Source of the DNA: Azospirillum fermentarium
GTDB lineage: Bacteria > Pseudomonadota > Alphaproteobacteria > Azospirillales > Azospirillaceae
Length of the DNA: 64,000 nt
Assembly (NCBI RefSeq): GCF_025961205.1
Contig: NZ_JAOQNH010000001.1
Span: forward strand, 1,326,001 to 1,390,000
Direction: 5' to 3'
Shown here: piece after piece, positions 7,372-18,043 of the stretch
Layout: every line of letters begins with the position of its first letter
Numbering within the stretch: the first letter of the stretch is position 1
Program-made: the position numbers and the translations under genes
The notes under the pieces: generated by a model
Seen by the model: the letters and a program-made list of their open reading frames with translations, nothing else
Database searches by the model: none
Told to the model about the DNA's origin: nothing

Positions 7372-8805
7372 ATGTCGGTCGGCGGGTCTTTGGATCAGCA
7401 GTGGATGCGGATTCGCGGCCGTCTCAAGGACGAGGTGGGGGAGATCGCCTACCGCAGCTGGCTCCAGCCGCTCACCGTGGGCGGTCTGGCCGGGGGCGAG
7501 GTGCGCATCCTGGTTCCCACCCGCTTCATGCGCGATTGGGTGCTGACCCATTACGCCGACCGTATCCGTGCCCTGTGGACCGTCGAGAACCCCGCCGTCC
7601 AGTCCATCGACGTGGTGGTGGCGGCCGCCGCCCCGGCACCGGCGCCGGAGTCGTCCACCCCCGTGGCGGCGGCGCCGTGCGCGCCGCTGGTTCCCGCCGC
7701 CCCCGTGGCGGTGGACGGGCCGTTCGGCGGCGCCCCCGACGATTCGCTGGCCGGTCCGGCGCTGGAGGAGCGCGACGATCCCATGGTGGGCTCGCTCGAC
7801 CCGCGCTTCACCTTCGACAATTTCGTGGTCGGCAAGCCCAACGAGCTGGCCTATGCCGCCGCCCGCCGGGTGGCGGAGGCCAGCAGCGTCACCTTCAACC
7901 CGCTGTTTCTCTATGGCGGGGTGGGGCTGGGCAAGACCCACCTGATGCACGCCATCGCCTGGGCCATCCGCAAGAAGGATCCCAACCGCAAGGTGATCTA
8001 CCTGTCGGCGGAAAAGTTCATGTACCAGTTCATCCGCGCGCTGCGCTTCAAGGACACCATGGCCTTCAAGCAGCAGTTCCGCTCGGTGGACGTGCTGATG
8101 ATCGACGACGTGCAGTTCATCAGCGGCAAGGATTCCACGCAGGAAGAGTTCTTCCACACCTTCAACGCCCTGGTGGACCAGAACCGCCAAGTGATCGTGT
8201 CGGCGGACAAGTCGCCCTCGGATCTGGAGGGCATGGAGGAGCGGCTGCGCTCGCGCCTGGGCTGGGGGCTGGTGGCCGACATCCACCCCACCACGTACGA
8301 GCTGCGCCTGTCGATCCTGCAGTCCAAGGCGGACGCCATGGGCACGGCCATCCCGCTGAAGGTGCTGGAATTCCTGGCCCACAAGATCACGTCCAACGTG
8401 CGTGAACTGGAAGGCGCCTTGAACCGCATCGTCGCCCATTGCGATCTGGTGGGCCGGGCCATCACGCTGGAATCGACGCAGGAGGTGCTCTACGACCTGC
8501 TGCGCGCCAATGACCGGCGGGTCACCATCGACGAGATCCAGAAGCGGGTGGCGGAGCATTACAACATCCGCGTGGCCGACATGCATTCGGCCCGCCGCGC
8601 CCGCGCCGTGGCCCGCCCGCGCCAGGTGGCGATGTATCTGGCCAAGCAGTTGACCGCCCGTTCGCTGCCCGAGATCGGGCGCAAGTTCGGCGGCCGCGAC
8701 CACACCACCGTCATGCACGCCGTGCGCAAGGTGGAGGAACTGTGCGCCACCGACCCGTCGTTCTCGGAGGATGTGGAGCTGCTGCGCCGGATGCTGGAAA
8801 GCTGA
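7372..8805 (+). CDS. dnaA: Chromosomal replication initiator DnaA
   Basis: 477 residues from ATG 7372, preceded by GGGAG at 9 bases. Domain I (about residues 7-75) has the typical W-x-x-I-R-G-R-L ... Y-R-S-W-L-Q-P-L. A Pro/Ala-rich linker (about 80-135) follows. Domain III is AAA+ with Walker [10 protein letters not shown] near residue 181 and Walker [10 protein letters not shown]. Domain IV has the DnaA signature [15 protein letters not shown] near residue 441. DnaA-ATP binds DnaA boxes and opens the origin. An upstream extension of the frame to 7174 is rejected because it does not look like DnaA. A terminator follows directly. Confidence 0.97.
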
Positions 8806-8831
8806 GCCGTACCCGCTCCGCCCCATGAAGA

Positions 8832-8870
8832 AGCCCCGCGGAAGAATCCTCTTCCGCGGGGCTTTCCGTT
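8832..8870. terminator. Terminator between dnaA and the convergent gene
   Basis: Thirteen-bp arms (8832-8844 and 8851-8863) surround a 6-base loop. The T-tract is interrupted (TTCCGTTT). It serves dnaA and, in the other direction, the end of the gene at 8883-9248. Confidence 0.75.
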
Positions 8871-8882
8871 TGGGCTGGGGGG

Positions 8883-9248
8883 TCAGTTGTCGTCGGGGAC
8901 ACAGCCGGTGCGGCCCGGCGGGCAATCGCTGCGGACGGTGCCGGACGGGGTCTGGCTGGGGCTGTTGTCCAGCGAGGAGCCGGACGATCCGCTGCCCAGC
9001 GTCCCGCTGCCCGACGAGGTGCCGCTGCCGGTGGTCCCGCTGCCCATGGTGCCGCTGGATCCGCTCGATCCGCTGGTCCCGGTGCCATAGGTGGGCTGCT
9101 GGGTGGTGCCGCTGCCGCGGTCCATCGTGCTGCCGCTGGAACTGCCGCTGGATGGGGTTTGGGTGCCGGCCGTTCCGCTGCCTGCGGCATAGGCGGACCC
9201 GGCCATCAGGGCGGCGGCCGCAGCCGCCGCGATCATCAGGGTACGCAT
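8883..9248 (-). CDS. Secreted Gly/Ser/Thr-rich low-complexity protein
   Basis: 121 residues: a signal peptide (MRTLMIAAAAAAALMAGSAYA) followed by about 75 residues of almost pure Gly-Ser-Thr repeats (units such as GSGT and GSSG), then a short C-terminal tail with two cysteines (D-C-P-P-G-R-T-G-C-V-P-D-D-N). ATG 9248 is chosen because GGAG lies 9 bases upstream; a second ATG at 9263 has no site. The protein has no recognisable enzymatic domain. It could be a flexible periplasmic or cell-surface linker-type protein, with the C-x6-C tail as the only ordered element. Function unknown. Confidence 0.65.
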   Translation of the reverse strand: MRTLMIAAAAAAALMAGSAYAAGSGTAGTQTPSSGSSSGSTMDRGSGTTQQPTYGTGTSGSSGSSGTMGSGTTGSGTSSGSGTLGSGSSGSSLDNSPSQTPSGTVRSDCPPGRTGCVPDDN

Positions 9249-9378
9249 TCCTCGACGCTCCATTCCGGTTTCGTTGGGGAAGGGGGGCGGGGTGTCTTCC
9301 GTCTTGCCTTCGCCGTCCTCAACAGGATGAGCGTGGTTCTGTTGCGGGCCTTTTCCCCTCCCCGCCAAGCGATGGGGG

Positions 9379-15539: not shown

Positions 15540-16691
15540 ATGTATTCGTTTTCTGCCTTCCGAGGCCTGCTTCCCGGTGCGCTGGCCGCGGCTGTTTCCA
15601 CGGCGGCGCTGGCCGCACCCGTGTACGACGGGGCGACGGCAACCCAGTGCATTCCCTTCGCCAACCCGCAGGCCGTGTCGTTCACCAACGCGCCGCGGCT
15701 GAACGTCAGCGTCGGCCCGGTGCGTGGCTATACCTCGGTACAGATGGACACCGGATCGGTGGGCGTGGCGCTCTCCGCCGGCAAGATCCCCGACTTCCAG
15801 GCGCTGAAGGCCCGGCCCGACTCCAAGCCCGGCACCCAGTATCTGTCCAGCAGCAAGATCCTGTGGGTGGGCACGTGGGTCCACACCACGGTGACGCTGC
15901 ACGACGGCAAGGGCGCGCCGGTGGCGGTGGCCTATGTGCCGGTTCTGGGGGTGGAGCAGGCCGGTTCCTGCCCCAGCTACCAGCAGGACGGCAAGATCTG
16001 CTCCGGTCTGGCCCCGGCGGTGAACGGCAGCGTCTTCTACATGGGCGTCGGCTTCGGGCAGGAGGCGGATTTCCAGCCCGAAGGCACGCCGGACAAGAAC
16101 GTCCTGCTGAACCTGGTGCGCCTGAACGGCCAGCCCATCGCCGCCGGTTCGCTGAACCCCGGCTACATCATCGGGCGCCAGGGCATCCAGGTGGGCCTGA
16201 CCGCGGCCAACACCGCCGGCTTCTCCTTCGCCAAGCTGGAGCCGTACGCCCAGTACCCCGGCGACTGGCTGCCGCCCAAGGGCTGCCTGGTGGTCAACCC
16301 GTCCGAGAACGGGGATAAGTGCGTGACCGCCAATGTGCTGGTGGATACGGGCATCCCCCAGAGCTATATGACGGTTCCCGCCGGCACCAAGCTGACCACG
16401 GTCCAGGCCCCCGACGCCAGCGAGCCGAAGAAGACGATCGGCGTTCTGGCCAAGGGCAACAGCGTGTCGGTCAGCTTCCCCGCCACGGCACCGTTCATCG
16501 CCACCGATTCCTTCACCGTCGGCGGCGGCACCCCGGTGGAGCCGGTGCAGGTGATCCCCAACGTCACCGACAAGCACCCGCCCTTCATCAACACCGGGCG
16601 CCATTTCCTGCGCCAGTACCAGTTCCTCTATGACGCCAAGCAGGGCTATCTGGGCATCAAGGCCCAGCCCAACGCCTGCGGCGAGAAGTAA
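15540..16691 (+). CDS. Secreted pepsin-like (A1-type) aspartic protease homologue
   Basis: 383 residues with a signal peptide (residues 1-26, LAA-A). Two active-site-like motifs are visible: VQMDTGSVGVAL with Asp70, and VLVDTGIPQSYM with Asp269. They are 199 residues apart, close to the spacing of the two catalytic aspartates in pepsin-like bilobal enzymes. Residues ~349-378 (NTGRHFLRQYQFLYD, then YLGIKA) resemble the pepsin C-terminal block (ILGDVFxRxYYxxFD ... IGxA). Six cysteines could form three disulfides. By these signs it is a bilobal aspartic protease fold exported to the periplasm or beyond. An inactive relative or a DUF3443-like protein is the alternative. AGGGGG lies 7 bases upstream of the ATG. 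It is monocistronic, with its own terminator. Confidence 0.72.
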   Translation: MYSFSAFRGLLPGALAAAVSTAALAAPVYDGATATQCIPFANPQAVSFTNAPRLNVSVGPVRGYTSVQMDTGSVGVALSAGKIPDFQALKARPDSKPGTQYLSSSKILWVGTWVHTTVTLHDGKGAPVAVAYVPVLGVEQAGSCPSYQQDGKICSGLAPAVNGSVFYMGVGFGQEADFQPEGTPDKNVLLNLVRLNGQPIAAGSLNPGYIIGRQGIQVGLTAANTAGFSFAKLEPYAQYPGDWLPPKGCLVVNPSENGDKCVTANVLVDTGIPQSYMTVPAGTKLTTVQAPDASEPKKTIGVLAKGNSVSVSFPATAPFIATDSFTVGGGTPVEPVQVIPNVTDKHPPFINTGRHFLRQYQFLYDAKQGYLGIKAQPNACGEK

Positions 16692-16706
16692 CCGAACCGC
16701 GGACGG

Positions 16707-16736
16707 CGCCCCGGCGGCAGGGCCGGGGCGTTTTCT
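16707..16736 (+). terminator. Rho-independent terminator of the aspartic-protease-like gene
   Basis: Nine-bp arms CGCCCCGGC/GCCGGGGCG (16707-16715, 16722-16730) are followed by TTTTCT. It also marks the boundary to the AT-rich patch. Confidence 0.85.
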
Positions 16737-16806
16737 ATGGGCAAGTAAGGTGCTTCATTCGTCCTTTGAGCATTATCCCCACATCTGCCCGCAAGAAAAA
16801 TGCCGG

Positions 16807-17451
16807 TCAGTTAAGAAGATAGAAATATGTAAGAACAACATTTACCAATACGGTTCCGGCTCCAATGACTATAATGGTCGTCCAATGGCCATCCGATATT
16901 CTCTTTGTGAGCATCTTTGCGACGACGATTGCTGCATAGAAAAATGCAAATACAGTGCATATGTATCTGATAATATTGCTTCCGCTAATGTATTCATTCT
17001 TAATAAAAATAGGAATAGATGCCGTCAAAAGAAACATCGCTATTCCAATGCAGAAACAAAAAATCATATATCCTCCAGAAAACAATCGTCTTCTGAAGTG
17101 AATTTCATTTTTTTCACCTGTAAATTCTTTGTGATCTGATTTATCTACCGACTGGTGCATGACATTTAAGGCGCGCATCTCTTGTGGAGAAAGGCTGTCT
17201 AGCACCCAGTCAATGCAAAAAGCTGCAACAATTAACAAAAATCCCCCGGCCAAAACAGGGAGAATTGTTATCAGATCGCTCTGAATACCAGATGTTTTTG
17301 GATCATAAATCTCTCGAAGATAATATATCTCAAATGCAAGGCTAACAGATGCCAAGCTAACACTAAGAGGGGCAAGTGATAGTGCAATTCTTCTAAATGG
17401 TTCGATGCTCTTTATATAATTTTCTTCGTTGCGTGGTAATTCAATTTCCAT
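16807..17451 (-). CDS. AT-rich four-helix membrane protein of unknown function
   Basis: 214 residues. Four hydrophobic stretches can be seen: LAPLSVSLASVSLAFEI, ITILPVLAGGFLLIVAAF, MIFCFCIGIAMFLLTASI and a final pair around ICTVFAFFYAAIVV and IIVIGAGTVLVNVVLTYFYLL. The count may therefore be four or five. A charged cytoplasmic-type loop (about residues 95-125) lies between the second and third. ATG 17451 is chosen because GGAGGG lies 5 bases upstream. Base composition and codon use (many AT-ending codons, Lys/Ile/Asn/Tyr rich) differ sharply from every neighbour, which indicates transfer from a lower-GC source. I recognise no family. Confidence 0.7.
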   Translation of the reverse strand: MEIELPRNEENYIKSIEPFRRIALSLAPLSVSLASVSLAFEIYYLREIYDPKTSGIQSDLITILPVLAGGFLLIVAAFCIDWVLDSLSPQEMRALNVMHQSVDKSDHKEFTGEKNEIHFRRRLFSGGYMIFCFCIGIAMFLLTASIPIFIKNEYISGSNIIRYICTVFAFFYAAIVVAKMLTKRISDGHWTTIIVIGAGTVLVNVVLTYFYLLN

Positions 17452-18043
17452 TATTCCCTCCACATAGCGTGTTTGCAGGTGAGATTAATGTAAATATTTT
17501 AATATAAAATTTCTATATAATTCTTTTCGTTTATATTTTATCTAAAAACTATAAATCGATATCCTATTGATCGCTCATCATTAATTCTGTACTGGATAAT
17601 AATTTATCTTAATTGATGTAAAACAAAAACTATGCCTCGGATCGCGTTGAGGGTGGTTGTTATGTTCATAATAAATATGCAGGTCAAGCCGGATGGGGCC
17701 TTATAAGCCCGCCATAGGCTGTGCGATAGCCACAGTCCGAGATGGGATGATGAACGTTGTCACTAAGGGCAATGCGAATGGGGGTCGCCCTGCCTGGGAA
17801 GGCGCTTTGCCTTCAATAAGGGTGAATTTGTGCGGATGGTGATGGGGATAATAAGTTCTTTCCCCTGCTTTCCGGCCTTGGCCCTTGTGGGCTAGTTCTT
17901 GACCGCTGCGATCAAGTTTCCGCAATTCGACCGAAACAAACGCCGCGTGCTAATGTCCATAGATGAACGGGAGCATTTGGCAACACAGTTCCACATCTAT
18001 TCACTATGGAACTGCGCGCACTTTATCAACCTGTTGGGAAGGT
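17452..18043. other. AT-rich intergenic stretch and mixed-composition remnant beside tRNA-Glu
   Basis: 592 bases. From 17452 to about 17640 it is extremely A/T-rich and probably holds the promoter of the membrane-protein gene. From about 17640 to 17930 the composition returns towards moderate. A 74-codon minus-strand open frame (17701-17925) ends cleanly but has no recognisable family or ribosome-binding site. No transposase, integrase or repeat of the tRNA 3' end was found. Confidence 0.5.

Follow-up and report, generated by a model that had tools for sequence, protein, structure and literature searches.

Introduction

Eukaryotes commonly have bilobal aspartic peptidases, which have been described in few bacteria; enzymes of the retropepsin type carry one lobe per chain. 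According to the excerpted text of PMC6819658, bacterial aspartic proteases are generally cytoplasmic. The same text describes PecA, the orthologue of PE_PGRS35 in Mycobacterium marinum, as a proven surface protease that has been modelled on the structure 4EHC, that cleaves both itself and other PE_PGRS proteins, and whose cleavage is abolished by a D293G mutation. No activity was seen for PE_PGRS16 in the work excerpted there, and it is this protein that is the best PDB match of the family described below (PMC6819658). Pepstatin inhibits the bacterial A1 enzyme shewasin D, which shows activity at acid pH and is mainly cytoplasmic; shewasin A is given in the excerpt of the same paper as having no signal peptide (PMC4814920). 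Signal peptides are likewise missing from the bacterial pepsin homologues listed in the excerpt of Rawlings and Bateman (2009), where the homologues of Sinorhizobium medicae and Marinomonas, a second bacterial group without the hydrophobic-hydrophobic-Gly (hhG) motif, are judged much more likely to be inactive; in the Sinorhizobium protein, pepsin position 303 is an Arg, the two Asp are spaced by 190 and the flap residue is at +44 (PMC2761423).

Here, a gene from the root-associated bacterium Azospirillum fermentarium is compared with these systems. It lies in a stretch of 64,000 nucleotides (contig NZ_JAOQNH010000001.1, positions 1,326,001 to 1,390,000; hereafter the window), and the original prediction, made from the letters of this stretch, had described its product as a secreted protein with the full pepsin layout. 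Comparison with its relatives suggests that this product, P0001, is an exported, disulfide-bonded aspartic peptidase of clan AA that would be active in the periplasm, a reading to which we assign a probability of about 0.65.

The Gene and Its Predicted Catalytic Motifs

The features of the gene are collected in Table 1. Its GC content is 0.63, 0.49 and 0.91 at the first, second and third codon positions, respectively. Two motifs, VQM-D70-TGS (within QMDTGSVG) and VLV-D269-TGI (within LVDTGIPQ), are spaced 199 residues apart, and the pair of DTG aspartates in a hydrophobic context that had been read from the sequence is real, both Asp-x-Gly sites being present in all 29 rows of the broadest family alignment. 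At least two DTG triplets occur by chance in 0.56% of 200,000 shuffles of P0001, and at least two hydrophobic-D[TS]G motifs with at least one DTG among them occur in 0.13% of 200,000. The conservation of both Asp-x-Gly sites across the family is far stronger evidence than these shuffle statistics.

Table 1. Features of the P0001 gene in the window, and frames of autotransporter relatives. A3 is the 25-row family alignment.
Feature	Coordinates	Strand	Basis
Whole gene; predicted exported pepsin-like protein P0001, 383 aa	15540..16691	+	ORF with ATG at 15540 and stop ending at 16691, AGGGGG upstream; orthologues under purifying selection
Putative signal peptide, about residues 1-26	15540..15617	+	Hydropathy scan and inspection; orthologues read ..PALAQ
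Predicted lobe 1 catalytic motif, residues 67-74, V-Q-M-D70-T-G-S-V	15738..15761	+	Aligned to DTGS of 4ehc and pepsins
Predicted flap region (residues 97-111, PGTQYLSSSKILWVG), with Leu102 at the position of the flap Tyr	15828..15872	+	Family alignment
Cys144-Cys154, probable disulfide, residues 144-154	15969..16001	+	Both Cys in 15/25 rows, neither in 9, one alone in 1
Predicted lobe 1 psi-loop, residues 167-173, Y-M-G-V-G-F-G, equivalent to pepsin I-L-G	16038..16058	+	Aligned on GILGIGF of candidapepsin-5
Cys249-Cys261, probable disulfide, just before second DTG	16284..16322	+	Both Cys in 8/25 rows (3 of the rows with one Cys displaced by at most 4 columns and still counted), neither in 17
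Predicted lobe 2 catalytic motif, residues 266-273, V-L-V-D269-T-G-I-P	16335..16358	+	Conservation of D269 and G271; PF13650 match of relative L009
Predicted lobe 2 psi-loop variant N351-T-G-R, then pepsin-like C-terminal strands, residues 350-372	16587..16655	+	Ungapped on 1am5
Autotransporter frames with a P0001-type domain	L053:1331-4768:-, L054:1570-4899:+, L054:5176-8493:+, L055:1335-4619:+		PF03797 barrel

Family Distribution and Conservation

Relatives of P0001 were sought in prokaryote, plasmid and viral collections. The P0001 sequence found matches in 14 of 61 genomes (its own included), all 14 belonging to one genus and some holding broken or partial copies. All eight loci with named records are from Azospirillum, with best-segment identities of 49-69%, which fits the alphaproteobacterial host of the original prediction. 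With a 15-row family profile, matches were obtained in 10 of the 385 genomes searched in the class and in 7 of the 398 searched in the phylum, the own genome being counted in each; A3 again matched 10 of the 385. Four plasmid records match P0001, and two of these four also match its relative L026; the annotated plasmid relatives all read hypothetical protein, the others being without annotation. Two scans of viral contigs returned no relatives of P0001. The family is patchy, proteobacterial and without an existing name.

Conservation was read from A8, a 29-row alignment that combines the 25 rows of A3 with L066, L069, L070 and L073. Left out of it were further Azospirillum orthologues, some being second copies of a single gene (L002-L007, L019-L022), broken or fragmentary copies (L008, L010, L015, L023, L074), the same genes fetched twice (L001, L031, L057-L065, L067, L068, L071, L072), and L041, whose printed frame is without a DTG motif. 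Eight residues are invariant in all 29 rows, namely D70, G72, G111, G169, G219, D269, G271 and N351, while S73 and G353 are each kept in 28. Nei-Gojobori dN/dS values fall between 0.11 and 0.42 among the 12 orthologue pairs listed of 28, and the orthologues of P0001 are under purifying selection. Broken or partial orthologues are also seen in other Azospirillum genomes: L008 and L015 are split over two frames, L010 is a remnant of 39 residues, and L023 is internally shortened. Since other genomes hold such copies, the gene seems dispensable in part of Azospirillum.

Fold Evidence From Profile Comparisons

Single sequences of the family gave little. P0001 alone had no match in Pfam or NCBIfam (E-value limit 10, with filters that drop most matches above 0.1), no aspartic protease chain was matched by P0001, L014 or L066 when each was searched alone against the PDB, and the sole PDB match of the 15-row profile was an unrelated, non-protease entry at E 1.8. 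With A3, the PDB search returned 4ehc (4.1e-5), the C-terminal domain of PE_PGRS16, and a pair of candidapepsins near 0.1; both DTG motifs are in register in the candidapepsin alignments, and in candidapepsin-5 the lobe 1 GVGF falls on GILGIGF. With A8, the matches were 4ehc at 7e-6, pepsin 1am5 at 6.5e-4 and three candidapepsins at 0.0055-0.015, followed beyond E 0.05 by renins, saccharopepsin, a plasmepsin and retroviral proteases. The A8 matches to 4ehc and 1am5 each comprise two stretches that together span both lobes. In the case of 1am5, the lobe 1 DTG is aligned first, and the lobe 2 DTG is then followed through to the last strands, with pepsin IFG on NTG. The C-terminal block, for which a likeness to pepsin had been drawn by eye, thus stands in a computed alignment: the consensus NtGrhlLrgydylyDaqnGyvGf lies ungapped on the IFGDVFLRNYYTIYDRTNNKVGF block of 1am5, G on G.

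Aspartic proteases account for 26 of the 29 PDB matches of A8, of which 5 have E-values below 0.05 and most lie above it; 21 of the 26 are so named, 5 are labelled only Protease and were taken as tethered retroviral enzymes from their length and matched stretch, and many are copies of renin or retroviral protease. E-values of this kind call for caution, as the DUF3443 profile matched an antibody chain at 0.0037 and L070 matched designed repeat proteins at 9.5e-8 and 5.4e-7, although none of the individual stretches passed. Because single E-values can mislead, the PDB case is made by the share of matches in one superfamily, 26 of 29, together with both motifs in register among the alignments listed.

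Pfam models point the same way in some relatives. PE-PGRS_C (PF20729, cut-off 33 bits) scores L066 at 36.1 and L070 at 39.8 bits, with L026 below the cut-off at 30.0, and does not match P0001 itself. L066 is a full-length family member by A3 (1.0e-60); L070 is a remote one, matched by A3 at 1.4e-7 over lobe 1 only and placed on a long branch, yet it strengthens A8. In the open-licence PMC literature, no report was found that links a PE-PGRS/PF20729 aspartyl peptidase to Proteobacteria. Asp_protease_2 (PF13650, cut-off 24.3 bits) scores L009 at 26.8 bits over lobe 2 and, at E-values up to 1, matches 14 of the 25 A3 rows, though not P0001.

Two template-free AlphaFold models of P0001, built from 8-row alignments that include 7 Azospirillum orthologues, have mean pLDDT values of 42.9 and 41.4, too low to fix where Asp70 and Asp269 lie relative to each other. 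In Foldseek, aspartic proteases fill ranks 1-34 of the best 50 matches with one model and ranks 1-27 with the other, none with E below 0.001; since the models are of low confidence and no E-value is below that mark, little weight is placed on these lists. On the strength of the profile alignments, P0001 very probably adopts the bilobal fold of clan AA, the pepsin/retropepsin superfamily.

Relationship to Family A1 and DUF3443

The pepsin layout originally proposed holds in part. A two-lobed clan-AA arrangement is supported, with a D[TS]G-type motif in each lobe and with aspartates, flap region and C-terminal strands following one another as they do in pepsin; the full A1 layout is not. In lobe 1 the hhG motif of family A1 is represented by Y167-M168-G169, aligned to ILG of candidapepsin-5, and in lobe 2 its place is taken by N351-T352-G353, aligned to IFG of 1am5. 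The position of the flap tyrosine (Tyr75) is occupied by Leu102, and Ile272 stands where pepsin has Thr218. Neither PF00026 nor TAXi matches P0001 at E-values up to 10, or any of the 25 A3 rows at E-values up to 1. Because NTG replaces hhG, Leu102 replaces the flap tyrosine and PF00026 is unmatched, P0001 is read at the level of the superfamily, and membership of A1 is not supported. PF00026 was found in 5 of 299 genomes of the phylum, 4 of them above the cut-off. Within the class, none of 240 genomes (the own genome among them) gave a match, but neither did any of 14 controls, so absence of PF00026 from the class cannot be claimed.

It has to be considered whether P0001 might nevertheless be a true member of peptidase family A1 that was acquired from a eukaryote by horizontal transfer. 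That pepsin 1am5 is the second PDB match of the family, and is aligned over both lobes, would fit such an origin. The missing PF00026 and TAXi matches and the loss of hhG in lobe 2 do not, and the strongest matches in Pfam and in the PDB are to mycobacterial proteins, eukaryotic kin being covered through Pfam and the PDB. This origin is accordingly given very little credence. Four bacterial PF00026 proteins, compared with the family profile to profile, align weakly and over the first DTG only (P 0.014 and 0.013), in an alignment that is very diverse and includes one incomplete sequence.

Equally little credence is given to the second possibility, that P0001 is a DUF3443 protein or has some other non-protease fold in which the DTG motifs are fortuitous. 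The original prediction had named a DUF3443-like fold as the nearest alternative and was right that such proteins carry DTGS motifs, as both DTGS and DSG are seen in them. In the profile comparison, DUF3443 aligns with the family at the first DTGS with P 0.007 and 0.0022, thereby outscoring the bacterial PF00026 proteins, and 1 of the 25 relatives obtains a weak DUF3443 score (E 0.069). These alignments cover only 22 and 35 columns, however, and stop at the first DTG. The DUF3443 model (PF11925, cut-off 25 bits) matches neither P0001 nor any protein of its genome, although it does match in other genomes, and a DUF3443 profile of only 4 sequences drew no protease among its 4 PDB matches, compared with 26 of 29 for A8. 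DUF3443 may itself be another clan-AA family: the motifs of the DUF3443 proteins L042-L045 follow one another much as in pepsin, with DTGS, a block of the form G[IV]LG, DSG and a block resembling FF[FY]GR.

A more serious competitor accepts the fold and doubts the chemistry. Family A1 includes non-enzymes such as the xylanase inhibitors and the pregnancy-associated glycoproteins, and P0001 could by the same token be a dead pepsin-fold protein, whose clade keeps the fold and the DTG motifs for structural reasons and binds a ligand, a peptide or an envelope component. The flap column of A8 reads Tyr in 22 of 29 rows, Leu in 6 and Gln in 1, and the six Leu rows (the window, three other Azospirillum, L009 and L025) form one clade with support of 100/98, the flap tyrosine being replaced by Leu in this single well supported group. 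The absence of hhG from lobe 2 can be added to this, as bacterial homologues without hhG are thought likely to be inactive in the excerpted discussion of PMC2761423. The dead A1 homologues described in that excerpt, however, are without a conserved active-site Asp (PMC2761423), whereas both Asp-x-Gly sites are present here in 29 of 29 rows, and the flap-Leu clade keeps them too, under purifying selection. Nor is the Asn of NTG a sign of decay in that clade, since the flap-Tyr rows have the same Asn and it thus belongs to the whole family. A dead protein is therefore considered rather unlikely, with something over a fifth of our credence, and an active peptidase is preferred.

Predicted Export, Cysteines, and Autotransporter Relatives

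The signal peptide claimed for P0001 is probable, a hydropathy scan and inspection agreeing on an export-type N terminus. By inspection, 21 of the 29 A8 rows have such an N terminus and 8 do not, with L033 doubtful. In one of the 21, a relative from another class of the phylum (L040:1357-2484:+), the N terminus is of lipoprotein type, with LISC followed by a Gly run, and this suggests a membrane-anchored version of the family.

The six cysteines that had been counted as an even set are at positions 37, 144, 154, 249, 261 and 380. Beyond the two pairs of Table 1, Cys37 and Cys380 occur together in 4 of the 25 A3 rows and are absent together from 21. As read from this alignment, the cysteines mostly come and go as pairs, which had not been part of the claim; because the A3 rows are related, the pair counts are not independent.

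In two genomes of the same class, both belonging to one family (f66), four frames are autotransporters that carry a P0001-type domain as passenger. All four have the PF03797 barrel (4.3e-48 or better), and three have PATR repeats, two of them above the PATR cut-off. In the open-licence PMC literature, no report was found of an autotransporter with a pepsin-like or aspartyl protease passenger.

These relatives bear on what the protein might do. A narrower form of the preferred reading, compatible with it, is that P0001 processes envelope or secreted proteins of its own cell rather than serving nutrition. In favour of this role are the action of PecA on PE_PGRS proteins, as excerpted from PMC6819658, the presence of P0001-type domains in autotransporters, and a genome that shows only one family member with an export-type N terminus. 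The genomic context speaks less well for it, as no neighbouring gene points to a substrate and none of 10 other window proteins tested lies beside the gene in other Azospirillum. A processing role is thus a tentative proposal, held at somewhat below even odds.

Genomic Context and Paralogues

In the window, the P0001 gene is flanked by a DUF2087 gene on one side and by a membrane-like ORF in a low-GC stretch on the other. This stretch lies directly downstream (16700-17900), the bin 16001-18000 having a GC content of 0.50 compared with 0.70 and 0.67 in the adjoining bins, and the ORF of 218 aa (16807-17463, minus strand) has only a sub-threshold MFS match. When P0001 and 10 other window proteins were searched in 16 loci (7 of them named Azospirillum, with about 5 kb on each side), P0001 alone was matched. 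The 7 full-length named Azospirillum relatives share 4.8 kb of upstream sequence in all 21 pairs, and downstream sequence is common to five of the named relatives (L017, L018, L021, L022 and L024). A topoisomerase gene is found just upstream in L018 (A. lipoferum), and a lon gene downstream in L022. Gene context gives no lead to the function of P0001.

Besides P0001, the own genome encodes a clear paralogue that lacks an export-type N terminus, as well as one or two that are remote. The locus L076:6896-8338:+, on C1 at about 2.73 Mb, has no obvious signal peptide. The same is true of a pair on C2 at about 0.66 Mb (L075:7649-7972 and 7976-9367), one member of which is a short C-terminal piece; the pair has a NiFe-hydrogenase-like gene on one side and a gene for an ABC transporter permease on the other.

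Proposed Mechanism

The steps proposed here, from the three-dimensional fold to catalysis, periplasmic location, the disulfides and any substrate, are inferred from comparison of sequences. The predicted Sec signal peptide of P0001 would be removed after about residue 26, and two disulfides, perhaps three, would form in the periplasm (144-154, 249-261 and 37-380). Asp70 and Asp269, one from each lobe, would then face each other across a cleft, over which the hairpin of residues 97-111 would close as the flap. One Asp would activate water and the other would protonate the scissile carbonyl, as in pepsin and, presumably, PecA. That the protein is probably active is argued from the Asn of NTG, which is family-wide and occurs in the flap-Tyr rows as well, and from both Asp residues, which are invariant in 29 rows.

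The residue that follows the second DTG, at the position of pepsin Thr218, is Ile in 16 of the 29 rows, Val in 10, and Leu, Glu and Ala in one each. By the argument of Rawlings and Bateman, Ile272 hints at a neutral pH optimum for P0001, and this argument is weakened because shewasin D, one of its subjects, is active at acid pH.

Comparison With Known Systems

Taken together, P0001 and its relatives may constitute a family of exported bilobal aspartic peptidases in Gram-negative bacteria that has so far gone unrecognised. Its members would be periplasmic, anchored as lipoproteins or displayed on the cell surface as passengers of type V autotransporters, would share ancestry with PecA and would have an NTG psi-loop in place of hhG; we would put the chances of this broader picture at about even. 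If true, it would mean, along with PecA, that extracytoplasmic two-lobed aspartic peptidases are an old bacterial class in which export has been solved by different secretion systems. An exported proteobacterial family would then join the mycobacterial PE-PGRS_C proteins and the proteobacterial cases. It would also help to date the origin of the two-lobed fold and provide a natural test of whether catalysis requires the hhG motif and the flap tyrosine.

The secreted enzymes of Pseudomonas aeruginosa are exported bacterial aspartic peptidases, as P0001 is predicted to be; they are retropepsin-like by the name given in the excerpt of PMC12239564, while P0001 is predicted to have two lobes in one chain. 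DUF3443 proteins resemble P0001 in their DTGS/DSG motifs, and where the N terminus is clear their frames resemble exported proteins or lipoproteins, but their C-terminal block is a different one. With pepsin 1am5, P0001 has in common the order of the motifs, both aspartates, an hhG motif in lobe 1 (YMG in P0001) and C-terminal strands that align without gaps. It departs from pepsin and from shewasins A and D in the NTG of lobe 2, in the flap Leu of its own clade and in the lack of a PF00026 match.

As described in the excerpt of PMC2761423, the Sinorhizobium homologue shares with P0001 both the absence of hhG and an Arg at position 303 (R354), and differs from it in that P0001 has an export-type N terminus. 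The Azospirillum paralogues without a signal (L011, L012 and L016) have spacings of 190-193 and a flap residue at +46/47, near the Sinorhizobium values. Because both features are common and the spacings of these paralogues are close, the Sinorhizobium/Marinomonas group may join the P0001 family, a comparison that is made by published description only.

The PE-PGRS_C proteins (PF20729), including PecA and PE_PGRS16 (4EHC), are like the P0001 family in that they belong to clan AA outside PF00026, are extracytoplasmic, and have a DTG in lobe 1 and a DTG or DSG in lobe 2. Unlike them, the P0001 family lacks both PE and PGRS domains and would presumably not depend on type VII secretion. In place of this route, its members have an export-type N terminus, predicted disulfides or an autotransporter barrel. 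Judged by sequence, it is these mycobacterial proteases, and not pepsin, that are the closest characterised relatives of P0001.
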